IMG/VR virus record: IMGVR_UViG_3300021090_000098
Coordinates: 1 to 26,107 of that record
Length of the DNA: 26,107 nt
From: a virus
Reading direction: 5' to 3' (one strand)
In this document: in pieces, positions 5,731 to 16,737 of the stretch
Position numbering within the stretch: the stretch's first letter is position 1
Layout of the letters: every line of letters begins with the position of its first letter
Program-made: the position numbers and the translations under genes
Notes under the pieces: model-generated
Seen by the model: only the letters and a program-made list of their open reading frames with translations
Told to the model about the DNA's origin: nothing
Databases searched by the model: none

Positions 5731-6224
5731 TTCTTACAAACAGGAACTACGATATTCTAAAATGGATCACTTTGGTCCTTTTGCCTTCACTTTCGGTTTT
5801 ATATTTGGCCCTATCCCAGGTATGGACGTTGCCTTTTGGAACCGAGGTTGTTGGTACGCTTTCAATAATTTCCCTCTTTCTTGCTGCTTTGCTTGGAATC
5901 TCAACAAGCTCCTTCAGAGTGAGAAATCCAATGTATCGTTTGGCTTTTGTAAAGCTTAGTGATAAAGCGGAATCAAATTGGGTTTTACCAAACAATACTT
6001 ATGAGATTCTTACCTGGATTGCACAGATTCTTCTTCCTGCCCTATCCGCAGCATATTTTGGCCTTTCACAAATTTGGGGTTTTCCCTATGGTGATCAGGT
6101 TGTTGGAACGCTAATGGCCATTGATGCTTTTCTTGGTATGTTGTTGGGCTTCAGTACAGCGCAATTTCACAAAAGTGTGGCTATTTCATCTGTTGAATGG
6201 CCTGAAGCTAGACTTGTCCCTTAA
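5727..6224 (+). CDS. Phage holin with two tandem holin domains
   Basis: The 165-aa protein consists of two copies of the same holin module. Copy 1 (about residues 6-64) and copy 2 (about 91-150) share the pattern N-x-Y-(D/E)-I-L-x-W-I, L-L-P-x-L-S, L-S-Q-(V/I)-W, P-(F/Y)-G and VVGTL. Each copy supplies two membrane helices, giving four predicted helices rather than the usual two. Holins form the membrane lesions that end infection. The start codon overlaps the upstream stop. No endolysin lies beside it in this window. Confidence 0.78.
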   Translation: MILTNRNYDILKWITLVLLPSLSVLYLALSQVWTLPFGTEVVGTLSIISLFLAALLGISTSSFRVRNPMYRLAFVKLSDKAESNWVLPNNTYEILTWIAQILLPALSAAYFGLSQIWGFPYGDQVVGTLMAIDAFLGMLLGFSTAQFHKSVAISSVEWPEARLVP

Positions 6225-6713: not shown

Positions 6714-6876
6714 GATAGATAGTCGATGGCGCGATAATGCAAGTGCATTGGAGATTGCACCTTACGAAAGTAAGAAAAGCGGTAAACGCAATGAGCGATG
6801 ATGGCTGATTATCTATCAATATAAGGCTTTAGTAATAAAGACCGATCTGACGTGAGAACGACGGCTTATATTTTTT
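6714..6876 (+). ncRNA. Structured non-coding RNA A (cloverleaf-like plus terminator arm)
   Basis: The stretch between promoters P2 and P3 has no credible gene. An 11-bp closing stem (6714-6724 with 6807-6817, one G-U) encloses several hairpins: AATGC/GCATT, CTTAC/GTAAG with a GAAA loop, and GCG/CGC, giving a cloverleaf-like shape. A second arm begins at AATATAAG (6818-6825), pairs with CTTATATT (6865-6872) and runs into six Ts, so it looks like the terminator. It is not a tRNA: there is no T-loop consensus and the arms have the wrong lengths. The 5' end is uncertain because the closing stem starts right after the -10 box. Confidence 0.65.
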
Positions 6877-6900
6877 CGCAGAAATTACATCTCCTATAAT
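6876..6900 (+). promoter_or_regulatory. Phage promoter P3 (consensus copy)
   Basis: TCGCA at 6876-6880, spacer GAAATTACATCTCC, TATAAT at 6895-6900. It is identical to P4 and P7 over the 25-base core and drives structured RNA B. Confidence 0.82.
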
Positions 6901-7024
6901 GAAGAAGCAATCCCTGAGGGGATGACGAGATATATACTGAGGTCAGGGTTAAAGTCCCCCCCGCTATGACATGAAAGTCATTAAAGTAATAATTGTTTAT
7001 AGATTATTACGCTTCTTCTTTTTT
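6901..7024 (+). ncRNA. Structured non-coding RNA B with possible pseudoknot
   Basis: This lies between promoters P3 and P4 and has no gene. GAAGAAGC (6901-6908) pairs with GCTTCTTC (7011-7018), which runs into six Ts. Inside are CCCTGA/TCAGGG, ATGAC/GTCAT and a perfect GTAATAAT/ATTATTAC hairpin (6986-6993 with 7003-7010). The loop of the first hairpin holds GGGGA, which can pair with the TCCCC downstream and form a pseudoknot. With a normal 6-base discriminator, part of the 5' closing arm would not be transcribed, so the true 5' end needs mapping. It matches no RNA class I know. Confidence 0.65.
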
Positions 7025-7734: not shown

Positions 7735-7809
7735 GAGAAGAGTAGTAAGTATCTAATATGATACCTGCGGATCTAGAAATAGATTTGTAGACTTTTCTCA
7801 TTTCTTTTT
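7735..7809 (+). ncRNA. Small structured RNA C
   Basis: About 75 bases, with no gene. GAGAAGAGT (7735-7743) pairs with ACTTTTCTC (7791-7799, one G-U), followed by ATTTCTTTTT. Inside are GTATC/GATAC and ATCT/AGAT hairpins. Its size recalls a tRNA, but there is no T-loop consensus and the arm spacing is wrong. The terminating T-tract is weaker than in RNAs A and B, so transcription may continue into RNA D. Confidence 0.58.
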
Positions 7810-7965
7810 ATTGACTAATGGGTTGTTCTGATTTTATTCCAAGAACAAGGTGACAAAAGAGCGCATATTAGCTGGGTAGGAAATATGGCTTACAAATCAC
7901 TCGCCGCCCCAGCGGAAACCGGAACATTGTGTTTTCGGGATTCAGAGCAACCCGTTAGTCAATAA
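7810..7965 (+). ncRNA. Structured leader RNA D upstream of the GGDEF-like gene
   Basis: A 22-bp stem (7810-7831 with 7942-7963, two G-U pairs) encloses about 110 bases with further hairpins: GCTGGG/CCCAGC and a CCGGAACA/TGTTTTCGG hairpin. TTGTTCT (7823-7829) can pair with the distal AGAGCAA (7944-7950) or, perfectly, with a local AGAACAA (7842-7848), giving two exclusive folds. It lies 26 bases upstream of the GGDEF-like start and is a candidate regulatory leader. It lacks the GCAAACC and CGCAAAG signatures of c-di-GMP-I riboswitches. A 26-codon frame (7885-7965) lies inside but is unlikely to be the purpose of the region. Confidence 0.6.
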
Positions 7966-7991
7966 ACCAATCTCTTGAAAAGGAAAATAAA

Positions 7992-9410: not shown

Positions 9411-9695
9411 ATGAACAATTTAATGGCTTCGCTTCAGAAATTAGTAGATTCAATGGGGCCAATAACTCGTCAACCTAGACACACAATACCGATGGGGATA
9501 TCTAATCGTATATCCAAACATCAAATGTCGAAGATTAGTTCAGATCACAAAAAAGGGATATCTTTTAAGCCTAGGACCATTACTCGCGTGAAGGTGTCAG
9601 TTCCTGGGTTCATACTCCCCCAATACATCAGCCCAACCCCAGCACAATATCGTCGCATGCATCTCGGGAAAGCGAGCAAAGAAAATGGATCTTAA
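9411..9695 (+). CDS. Basic hypothetical protein (94 aa)
   Basis: A basic protein, rich in proline, serine and arginine and with little predicted regular structure. A C-terminal 'YISPTPAQYRRMHLG' is the most distinctive block. The start follows CTTGAAAGGAG, though the spacing to the ATG (about 13 bases) is long. It overlaps the next gene by 11 bases. It may bind nucleic acid or the membrane protein encoded next; neither is shown by the sequence. Confidence 0.58.
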   Translation: MNNLMASLQKLVDSMGPITRQPRHTIPMGISNRISKHQMSKISSDHKKGISFKPRTITRVKVSVPGFILPQYISPTPAQYRRMHLGKASKENGS

Positions 9696-10455
9696 TGTTG
9701 TTATGAAAGATCTACGACGAGTTTTATATAAGAATTCTCCTACTATTCTGACTGCTTTGGGTGTGGGTGGTCTGATCACCACAGTCATATTGGCTGTTAA
9801 AGCCACTCCAAAAGCTCTTGAGATTATCGAAATGGAAACAGAGTATCGGTCAACAGAGGAACATGATTCTAATTACATGAAACGAATTGAAACTCTAGAT
9901 GTTATCGAATTAACCTGGAAGGAGTATATTCCAACCATAGCAATGGGTGCGATCACAATAGCCTGCATTATCGGCTCAAATCGTATTCATATGCGACGCA
10001 ATGCAGCTCTAGCCAGCTTGTTCGCAATCGCCGAAACTTCTTTGAAGGAATACCAGGCAAGAGTGGCTGAGAAATTTGGTGAGAAAAAGGAAGAGATGAT
10101 TCGTGGTGAGCTCGCACAGGAGAAGCTTGATAAAAATCCTGTGGACGAGAAGATAGTTGTTCTTACGGGTAAAGGTCAGTATCTCTGCTATGATTCCTTC
10201 TCTGGTCAATATTTTAAGAGCGATATTGAAGCTCTTCATCGAGCTGAGAATGTATTCAATCAGAGACTCCTTCGGGAAGGTTGGCTTTGTATCAACAGCT
10301 TTTACGACGAGATAGGATTGGAACCCATTGCTCTTGGTGACGAGATGGGCTGGATTGCAGAGAAATCCTTACTTGAAATGAGATTCAACACCAAACTGGC
10401 AAAAGATGAGCCTTGTCTAGTGATTGATTACATGATCTCGCCAATTCATATTTAA
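9685..10455 (+). CDS. DUF6353-like phage membrane protein (paralog 1)
   Basis: The 256-aa product has two N-terminal hydrophobic helices (about 19-40 and 87-105), a charged helical linker, and a C-terminal alpha/beta domain with 'YLCYDSFSGQYF' and 'GWLCINSFYDEIGLEP'. The same architecture appears in the 314-aa gene at 15793, including 'L..VKATPKALEIIE' against 'MASKATLKVEALVE'. I recognise this as the DUF6353 type common in phages of gut Firmicutes; its function is unknown. A weak ribosome binding site and an 11-base overlap suggest coupling. Confidence 0.66.
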   Translation: MDLNVVMKDLRRVLYKNSPTILTALGVGGLITTVILAVKATPKALEIIEMETEYRSTEEHDSNYMKRIETLDVIELTWKEYIPTIAMGAITIACIIGSNRIHMRRNAALASLFAIAETSLKEYQARVAEKFGEKKEEMIRGELAQEKLDKNPVDEKIVVLTGKGQYLCYDSFSGQYFKSDIEALHRAENVFNQRLLREGWLCINSFYDEIGLEPIALGDEMGWIAEKSLLEMRFNTKLAKDEPCLVIDYMISPIHI

Positions 10456-11565: not shown

Positions 11566-11745
11566 ATGATTGGGAATGTCTTCTTGTTATTCTTAGCAAC
11601 TCTTTTGTTTGGGATTTTTAATATATACATAAATTTAATAACTGGTGATGCACGTTTGAAAAGAATGACTTTGTTCTTAGTTTATGTATCTATTTGGGGT
11701 GAATTAACCATATTAATTCGAGCATTCGTTTTGCTAATGACATAA
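11566..11745 (+). CDS. Small two-helix membrane protein (59 aa)
   Basis: Two hydrophobic segments (about residues 3-25 and 35-57) flank a short polar loop 'LITGDARLKRM'. The ATG lies 8 bases after GAAAGGAG. Layout and size resemble the 55-aa protein at 11035. Its stop is the last coding base before the 830-base non-coding region. No family is recognised. Confidence 0.6.
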   Translation: MIGNVFLLFLATLLFGIFNIYINLITGDARLKRMTLFLVYVSIWGELTILIRAFVLLMT

Positions 11746-11749
11746 TAAA

Positions 11750-11840
11750 AGTTGCGCGGCTAAGCGGAGCAATAATTAGCTTGGTTGTCCTAGAGACATC
11801 ATTCTATATGAACCGTGTAGGTGTGAAACCTGCCGCAACT
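11750..11840 (+). ncRNA. Structured RNA motif, copy 1 (91 bases)
   Basis: AGTTGC-GC-GGC (11750-11760) closes against GCC-GCAACT (11832-11840). Inside are CTAA/TTAG (to 11779), TGTC/GACA with a 5-base loop, and GTAGGT-GTGAA-ACCTGC at the 3' side. Copy 2 repeats all of these with compensatory changes. A loop CGG can pair with the conserved CCG before the last hairpin, a possible pseudoknot. No reading frame of note covers it. I do not recognise the RNA class. Confidence 0.7.
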
Positions 11841-11926
11841 TCATATAGTGCCACAGTGAGAAACAACACAGCGTAGTTTAGACATTAGATATCACCAAGT
11901 CGCAACCAGCTGTGGTGCTATATGAA
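11840..11926 (+). other. Long hairpin between the two RNA motif copies
   Basis: Bases 11840-11856 pair with 11910-11926 in a 17-bp stem with two adjacent G-U pairs. The distal end of the stem, CTATATGAA (11918-11926), is identical to 11804-11812 inside motif copy 1, so TTCATATAG (11840-11848) has two exclusive partners. Confidence 0.6.
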
Positions 11927-11936
11927 ATTTGAAAAT

Positions 11937-12208
11937 ACTTGCGCGGCTAAACGGGACCGATCGCTATCAAGATAAAAGAACGTCCTGCTTGGAATATAAG
12001 CTCTTGTAGAATAATTAGCTTAGCTGGCCATTGAGCCAGATGAAGTTATGCAGACGTTAATATTTGTGAGCGTGTATCTCTTGGTTTCAGCAGAGTAAAC
12101 CCGATCTCCTATCCTTCCCAAATCCGATCTTCATTTCCTTTCTTTTCGGTAAGGGAAGCCACAAATTATTGACGAGAACACCGTGTCGGTGTGAAACCGG
12201 CCGCAAGT
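11937..12208 (+). ncRNA. Structured RNA motif, copy 2 (272 bases, with insertions)
   Basis: ACTTGC-GC-GGC (11937-11947) closes against GCC-GCAAGT (12200-12208). It shares CTAA/TTAG, the hairpin before the variable part (here CTGGC/GCCAG) and GTCGGT-GTGAA-ACCGGC. Extra arms absent from copy 1 include GGGAC/GTCCT, GCTT/AAGC, GGTTT/AAACC, ATTTGTG/CACAAAT and CTTCCC/GGGAAG. The pairing differences from copy 1 are compensatory, good evidence for a selected RNA fold. Confidence 0.7.
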
Positions 12209-12581
12209 TTGTTTAGGAATTTACTTGTATTCTGTACAGGCTCCAGCAATGGATAAAGTCCAAGGCAAAAAGGACACAAGTATATTCACAAAGAATCCAA
12301 GGCTGAACCAGGTGCGTTCTAGGGGAATTCTCCCATGTCATCTCCTGCTCTATAACAGTGGGCTTGAAGTTATTGACTGGGGTGGGAATAAGATAGGTCT
12401 CCTCCTGGCTGTGATAATTGACCTAAGCCAAATATAAAAAAGGTGCATCGTCACGAAAGAAAAGAACAACACTTGTCAACCGCTGGTACAAATCCAAGTT
12501 GAAAGTAACTGCCTGAGATTGGATGACGATCCGGATGGTGTAACCGGAAATCATAATCAAAATTCTAAAAGGAGCAACACA
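12209..12581 (+). other. Non-coding stretch after the RNA motif copies
   Basis: No credible gene is seen. A 70-codon frame from a TTG at 12225 lacks a ribosome binding site and is rejected. The stretch contains a GGGGAATTCTCCC hairpin, a bulged CTT-g-TCAAC/GTTGAAAG hairpin and ATCGTC/GACGAT, so it may be a continuation of the same large RNA, giving a transcript of up to about 800 bases. Its end merges with the AAAAGGAG of the next gene. Confidence 0.4.
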
Positions 12582-12785
12582 ATGTTAAAAGAAAAGATGG
12601 CAGCCCTTTGGGCAAAAGCAGTTGACAACAAAGAACTACTGATCAAGGTTGGTTTGACTCTCGCCGGTGTGGCAGTAGGCGCGATAACGACATCAATCGT
12701 CGCCAATATTCAGGAAAGAAATATTCTTGAAGAGCTTCTGATGGTGCAAGATGAAGAAGAGGATGAGGACGAGGACTCTTCGTAA
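12582..12785 (+). CDS. Small single-helix membrane protein with acidic tail (67 aa)
   Basis: A charged N-terminal helix, one membrane helix (about residues 20-42, 'LIKVGLTLAGVAVGAITTSIV') and an extremely acidic C-terminus ('DEEEDEDEDSS'). The start at 12582 follows AAAAGGAGCAACACA; an extension to 12519 would begin inside the non-coding region without a site. It resembles the 60-aa P7 protein in layout. The function of the acidic tail is unknown. Confidence 0.62.
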   Translation: MLKEKMAALWAKAVDNKELLIKVGLTLAGVAVGAITTSIVANIQERNILEELLMVQDEEEDEDEDSS

Positions 12786-15588: not shown

Positions 15589-15806
15589 TGGCTGAGGATT
15601 TGATTAAATTTACTCTCTATTGGAATGATGGAAAAAAAGAGGTAATAGAAGGAACATCTGTCTTCGACGCGATATCTAGAAATGGATATACGTCCAAATC
15701 AAAAACAGAGTTAGCTTATGCTGTCTCTGGAGATGACGATAGTCTAAAATGGAATGCAGTTAAGAATCAATGGGAAAAAAGGAGAAACCACAATGATGAA
15801 TATTAG
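15588..15806 (+). CDS. Hypothetical 72-aa protein
   Basis: A small alpha/beta protein ('FTLYWNDGKKEVIEGTSVFDAISRNGY') ending in a basic tail. The start overlaps the upstream stop by one base. Its last codons overlap the next gene and carry that gene's ribosome binding site. The fold may be ubiquitin-like; no family is recognised. Confidence 0.64.
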   Translation: MAEDLIKFTLYWNDGKKEVIEGTSVFDAISRNGYTSKSKTELAYAVSGDDDSLKWNAVKNQWEKRRNHNDEY

Positions 15807-16737
15807 TGACATCAAAAGAAGTATTGGTCGTGGGGGTTTATATTTGCGCAAGTACAGCCCGGAAATCCTTCTGGGCACAGGTTTAATTGGTGTGGTAGCT
15901 ACAGTTGTGATGGCCTCGAAAGCCACATTGAAGGTGGAAGCACTTGTTGAAGAAACAGTACTGATAACTACTAAAATCAATGATGCAGGAGAACTTGGAA
16001 AAACCAGTGATGGTCGCCCATATTCTGCAGAGGATCATCAGAAAGATCTGGCAGTGCATTATATTCAAACTGGCCTCAAATTTGCCAAACTATACGGACC
16101 GGCTGTTGGTGTTGGTATATTGTCACTCACAGCGATCCTGGCATCGCATGGTATTATGGCACAGCGACAGGTTGCACTGATTGCTGCTTACAATCTTCTG
16201 CATGAGGGTTACCAGGCTTATCGTCATCGTGTGGTCGACGAGTTGGGTGAGGATGTGGACCGTAACTATTATCTTGGTTTGAGCGATGAGGTATATAAGG
16301 AGACTGTGGTTGATGAGGATGGTAATAAGACCAAAACCAAAAAGACAGTCAAGATTCGTAGTGGTAGGCCTCTCAGCATGTATGCTCGATGCTATGACAA
16401 AGGTAATACTCAATATCGTGGCGATCGCATTATGGACCGGGCATTTCTTATGGGGCAACAGCGATATGCAAATGATAAATTGCTTCTGCATGGCCATGTC
16501 TTCTTGAATGAAGTGTACGAGTCTCTCGGATTCCCTCATACAAAAGAAGGGCAACTGGTTGGATGGGTTTTGCGTGGTGATCCCAGGCAGATGGAAGATG
16601 AAGGTCGAGATGGTTATATATCGTTTGGTCTTGATCTCCCCAGCATGCCAACCGCTGATCGGGAATTTATGGATGGTGAGAACGATGCCATCTGGCTTGA
16701 ATTCAATGTCGATGGTGTTGTATACCAACTTATTTGA
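15793..16737 (+). CDS. DUF6353-like phage membrane protein (paralog 2)
   Basis: The 314-aa form starts at 15793 after AAAGGAGAAACCACA. Two membrane helices (about 26-43 and 100-122) and a soluble alpha/beta domain match the gene at 9685: 'SPEILLGTGLIGVV' against 'SPTILTALGVGGLI', and 'VFLNEVYESLGF' against 'LCINSFYDEIGL'. The frame stays open for 31 more codons beyond its TGA, to a TAA at 16831-16833 beside the next ribosome binding site. The shorter end matches the paralog's C-terminus better. Function unknown. Confidence 0.68.
   Translation: MMNISDIKRSIGRGGLYLRKYSPEILLGTGLIGVVATVVMASKATLKVEALVEETVLITTKINDAGELGKTSDGRPYSAEDHQKDLAVHYIQTGLKFAKLYGPAVGVGILSLTAILASHGIMAQRQVALIAAYNLLHEGYQAYRHRVVDELGEDVDRNYYLGLSDEVYKETVVDEDGNKTKTKKTVKIRSGRPLSMYARCYDKGNTQYRGDRIMDRAFLMGQQRYANDKLLLHGHVFLNEVYESLGFPHTKEGQLVGWVLRGDPRQMEDEGRDGYISFGLDLPSMPTADREFMDGENDAIWLEFNVDGVVYQLI

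Follow-up and report, generated by a model that had tools for sequence, protein, structure and literature searches.

What might a phage maintain in an intergenic stretch that carries the same motif twice, with the base changes on one strand of each stem answered on the other? The question is raised by a fragment of an uncultured phage from IMG/VR (26.1 kb, hereafter the window, meaning the whole 26,107-nucleotide stretch that was analyzed), whose proteins include distal and minor tail proteins, a DUF6353 protein, and a DNA primase/polymerase sharing ~54% identity with the enzyme of Gordonia phages such as Captrips. Two paralogous genes, at 9685–10455 and 15754–16737 (both phrog_2152, the former matching DUF6353), flank the region of interest. 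The RNA features and all window genes relevant to them lie on the plus strand.

Copy 1 of the motif is a short intergenic form (11749–11841) in which comparison places a closing stem P1 (11749–11756/11834–11841), a hairpin P3 (11759–11763/11776–11780), and a hairpin P4 (11786–11798), followed by a T-arm with a TGTGAAA loop (11817–11833); it has no P5 arm. Copy 2 is a long form, likewise intergenic (11937–12208), with P1 (11937–11943/12202–12208), P3 (11946–11950/12015–12019), P4 (12024–12039), and the T-arm (12185–12201) again placed by comparison, and with a predicted P5 arm at about 12055–12174. A reading of the sequence alone had claimed compensated differences between the two copies, and all three are present: AGTTGCG/CGCAACT versus ACTTGCG/CGCAAGT in P1, GTAGG/CCTGC versus GTCGG/CCGGC in the T-arm, and TGTC/GACA versus TGGC/GCCA in the middle hairpin. 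Its further claims also hold, in that GCGCGGCTAA, AATAATTAGCTT, and the TGTGAAA loop are common to both copies, the extra arms of copy 2 amount to ~58 nt more in the loop of the first arm and ~120 nt before the T-arm, and the region is non-coding, with no ORF bearing a Shine–Dalgarno sequence over either copy and the upstream ORF stopping at 11745. An independent repeat search recovers the corresponding direct repeats (37 nt at 84%, 21 nt at 86%, and 20 nt at 85%). When copy 1 is folded without constraints, the minimum-energy structure differs from the proposed one and is better by only ~2 kcal/mol, and for this reason the structure rests on comparison and not on energy. Copy 1 is followed by a strong, near-perfect hairpin of 17 bp (TTCATATAGTGCCACAG/CTGTGGTGCTATATGAA, 11840–11926, z −3.5), the 5' arm of which can also pair with CTATATGAA within copy 1 (about 11801–11809), an alternative pairing that possibly forms a putative switch.

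Beyond the window, whose own record is excluded from the collections searched, the element was found in four phages (G001, G006, G007, and G008) with one copy each, which gives six copies in five phages. G001 is a true homologue retrieved when 2.9 million viral contigs were scanned with a T-arm pattern, G006 came from a scan with a pattern of the 5' half, and G007 and G008 were found among 31 contigs with relatives of the nearby DUF6353 protein; a relaxed T-arm pattern returned the same four contigs and otherwise coding coincidences only. Since the DUF6353 protein of these phages is only ~58–65% identical in amino acids to that of the window, the RNA core, 55–77% identical between copies, had time to diverge. 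Copy 2 is 74–77% identical to the copies of G001, G006, and G007 and 71% identical to copy 1, and because it is nearer to these copies than to its neighbor, it seems to represent the standard form, with copy 1 as a reduced paralog.

Other matches were discarded. The first pattern scan (GCGCGGCTAA..TTAGCTT, 51 contigs) gave chance matches only; the T-arm pattern matches in contigs L058, L059, L061–L065, L123, L124, L126, L127, L129, and L130 are coding coincidences without the 5' half; and the sole match in the genome collection, in a Chloroflexi MAG, is a coincidence in GC-rich, coding-looking sequence, also without the 5' half. A search of 20 more distant phage contigs produced no convincing match to the model (one at E 0.08, 15 bits, was dismissed), a search of named phages and plasmids with the core produced no real match, and no description of the RNA was found in the literature searched.

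From 5' to 3', the core runs through P1, CG, P3, UU, two bases, P4, P5, an ACCGU linker, the T-arm, and P1'. P1 has 7–8 bp, with NUUGCG on its 5' strand and CGCAN on its 3' strand, and P3 is a D-arm-like hairpin of five pairs whose loop begins with RCGG and ends with AUAA; P4 is a short hairpin. The T-arm (GNNGG-UGNRANN-CCNNC) combines a 5-bp arm and a 7-nt loop, with no gap before the 3' strand of P1, so that the junction is tRNA-like; its loops (UGUGAAA, UGAGAAA, UGCGAAA, and UGCAAAC) keep U-G-N-R-A in all six copies, and its U-G pair is kept in five of them, which fits an RNA. In a hand-trimmed alignment of the six copies (A5), both-side changes affect 12 of 27 pairs and 93.8% of cells are paired, versus at most 43% in slid controls; the trimming of inserts by hand is a weakness of these figures, although the anchors flanking P3, P4, and the T-arm hardly vary. 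The covariation score was reached by none of 500 shuffles. Most of the covariation is carried by P3 and P4, and P1 and the T-arm contribute three pairs with both-side changes. P3 reads GCUAA/UUAGC, GCUAG/CUAGC, GUCAG/CUGAC, or GUGGG/CCCAC among copies, and it underwent a fresh test, as the helix was proposed from three sequences and the later G007 and G008 form different perfect helices, with a chance of ~0.8% for each.

The RCGG of the P3 loop can pair with the CCGU of the linker in all six copies (in copy 1, GCGG at 11764–11767 with CCGT at 11813–11816), and because this pseudoknot is nearly invariant, we keep it as a proposal. The long P5 arm is predicted in five of the six copies with its closing helix at the same place, and its folding energies are no better than those of shuffled sequences. 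The long inserts of copy 2 and G001 are placed in loops, which fits an RNA fold. The sequence-only reading had held that the motif is a selected RNA structure, and this is supported by the four further phages, which carry the element with new compensatory changes; neither homologues without covariation nor a known family emerged. On the strength of sequence comparison, we regard the element as a firmly established, previously uncatalogued family of structured RNA in a small clade of tailed phages.

Rfam 15 gave no match at the RNA in the window (E up to 5) or at this place in contigs L080–L082 (E up to 1), and its matches elsewhere in the sequences are at chance level only. Closeness to GOLLD, ROOL, and HEARO, which had been raised as a comparison, was not found, there being no match in Rfam 15; no Rfam match spoke for a group I intron or a known ribozyme either, and both ideas were dropped.

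The position of the RNA is conserved as well. In four of five phages, it begins 3–5 nt after an upstream stop codon; in the window, the 59-aa, membrane-like upstream ORF (11566–11745) ends in a stop codon, after which come a second TAA and, immediately, copy 1, and the exception is G007 (22 nt), where the called upstream ORF is short. Upstream genes differ among the five phages, and the same gene of 57–67 aa (LLIK..LAG) is found 120–375 nt downstream of the RNA in all five (12582–12785 in the window, 67 aa, with no match in a Pfam search), with one or two ORFs in between in two of them. The RNAs of G001 and G007 are each followed, within 21–27 nt, by a start codon that has a Shine–Dalgarno sequence. 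No promoter or terminator was called around the RNA. Because it lies close after a stop codon and near the same gene, with no evident promoter or terminator, the RNA is most likely part of an operon transcript.

A second conserved RNA element, with an H-type pseudoknot (GGCU..CCAGG..UAGGUC..CCUGG..GACCUA..AGCC), lies at 12301–12429 and has counterparts in G001 and G008; each of the three sequences forms all 15 pairs, two of which show compensatory changes. Where it stands relative to the first RNA, in order and in spacing, varies from phage to phage, and on these grounds it is a separate module. With the consensus GRCU..CCARG..UAGGUC..CYUGG..GAYCUA..AGYC, it directly precedes the start of a gene in three phages (at 12301–12429 in the window, about 11395–11530 in contig L076, and about 8222–8335 in contig L121); it is not in Rfam, and its core motif is in no other viral contig searched.

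What the first RNA might do is suggested by its P5 arm, which is rich in CUCCU, UCCUUUCU, and CCUCCUUU. In copy 2, the pyrimidine-rich segments of the arm (CTCCTAT and TTCCTTTCTT, 12106–12144) are mostly unpaired and resemble the 3' tail of 16S rRNA. Taking the 7-mers of AUCACCUCCUUUCUAA as the tail, we found 5 clusters of matches in the six copies against an expectation, based on the five contigs, of 0.55–0.58 (P about 3e-4), the target having been chosen post hoc, after inspection of the arms. Shuffled tails gave a mean of 0.75 clusters, with none of 300 reaching 5, and shuffling sequence by sequence gave a weaker result (P 0.02–0.4). In constrained ensembles, the segments are 64–98% unpaired versus 42–47% overall in the copies holding them. 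Pyrimidine-rich unpaired loops are present in five of six copies, of which that of G007 has CUCCU repeats only; copy 1 has neither P5 nor the motif. Complementarity to the Shine–Dalgarno sequence downstream in each phage is generic and not co-evolving. At the corresponding place of a more distant phage, an apparently non-coding stretch of ~690 nt (L083, 11423–12112) matches the 16S tail over 10 nt (ACCTCCTTTC) and does not match the RNA model.

On this basis, our leading, if tentative, proposal is an operon-embedded RNA that controls translation by binding Shine–Dalgarno sequences in cis and possibly in trans; our confidence is limited because the per-sequence shuffles are weaker, the target is post hoc, and copy 1 has no arm. 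The RNA would be transcribed together with the operon, may be freed by RNases, and would fold with the P3-loop/linker pseudoknot, and the P5 arm would expose a 16S-tail-like pyrimidine loop able to pair with Shine–Dalgarno sequences. Such pairing would act on the following cistrons, possibly also in trans, and may repress or time their translation. The start of P1 is near enough to the stop codon that a terminating ribosome should unfold the stem, and RNA folding could in this way be coupled to translation of the upstream gene. Gram-positive sRNAs such as RsaE/RoxS and LhrC also bind Shine–Dalgarno sequences through C/U-rich loops. The phage RNA would resemble them in exposing pyrimidine-rich loops complementary to Shine–Dalgarno sequences, but they are simple hairpin sRNAs with their own promoters, whereas its loop is carried by a conserved multi-helix core inside an operon. 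A bolder version, in which the tRNA-like fold and the copy of the 16S 3' tail together make a trans-acting ribosome mimic that captures host or phage Shine–Dalgarno sequences and reprograms translation during infection, seems to us rather improbable.

Two other readings are serious rivals to translational control through the P5 loops, although each appears less probable than that proposal. The RNA could be a cis-regulatory leader of the small downstream gene, its core sensing a ligand or binding a phage or host protein to gate translation or transcription of the next cistron, with the pyrimidine loops incidental; we consider this unlikely but the closest competitor. The constancy of that gene in all five phages despite differing upstream genes speaks for such a leader, as do the nearby start codons of G001 and G007 and the second pseudoknotted element directly before the same gene in two phages, but the distance to the gene is variable, other ORFs lie in between in two phages, neither a terminator nor a sequestering stem was seen, and synteny is weak evidence because gene order is broadly conserved in these phages. 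Slightly less likely still is a stand-alone structural RNA that self-assembles or, during lysis, serves as a scaffold for the ribosome or for a protein of the phage or its host, as proposed for GOLLD and ROOL. These are likewise structured non-coding phage RNAs of unknown function with a conserved core and variable arms, and GOLLD is reported to bind ribosomes (PMC12286853). The compact, heavily conserved core, the two linked copies in one phage, and the lack of coding capacity would suit this reading, but the RNA (about 95–275 nt) is roughly three to eight times smaller than GOLLD or ROOL, has no sequence or model similarity to them, lies outside any tRNA island (none was found near it), and has no promoter of its own that we could find.

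The layout of the RNA is tRNA-like, but the RNA is not a tRNA. The order and number of helices are those of a class II tRNA, with a 5-bp arm and a 7-nt loop of T-loop consensus stacked on the closing stem and usually a long variable arm before the T-arm, and the RNA could on this account mimic a tRNA, as a substrate or decoy of RNase P, a synthetase, a modification enzyme, or a tRNA-cutting defense nuclease. We find this improbable: the tRNA covariance model has no match in the five phages even at E 10 (controls match in 14 of 14 genomes), ARAGORN calls no tRNA, the 3' flanks examined hold no CCA end, the P4 loop has 4–6 nt instead of the 7 of an anticodon loop (one copy having inner hairpins), and the sequence is unusual at positions 8–9 and in the D-loop. 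A further difference from a tRNA is that the proposed pseudoknot joins a loop to a linker, not D-loop to T-loop bases. Least probable by far is a DNA-level element, such as an origin or a packaging or recombination site that folds as a single strand and was duplicated in the window phage; inverted repeats and a second copy in the same intergenic stretch could be expected of it, but in none of the five phages does the element change strand with respect to the genes, and the conserved U-G pair and T-loop consensus of the T-arm are RNA traits.

Other features were observed in the window. A promoter-like repeat, TCGCAGAAATTACATCTCCTATAATGAAA, starts at 6213, 6673, 6860, 7008, 7337, 7694, and 10731 and is conserved in the four related phages. 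Three short non-coding stretches with inverted repeats (6715–6860, 6895–7020, and 7735–7805) are candidate small phage RNAs, each preceded by a promoter-like repeat and ending in a T-rich hairpin. In a non-coding gap at 7807–7966, the arms of a 25-nt inverted repeat are 92% complementary and stand 110 nt apart.

To our knowledge, new phage structured-RNA families with prospectively confirmed covariation are uncommon, and this one adds an unusual architecture, tRNA-like without being that of a tRNA. Several conserved RNAs of these phages, this one among them, are uncatalogued, which makes the clade look rich in structured RNA. Should the 16S-tail-like loops prove functional, the RNA would give the phage a means of competing with the ribosome for translation start sites.
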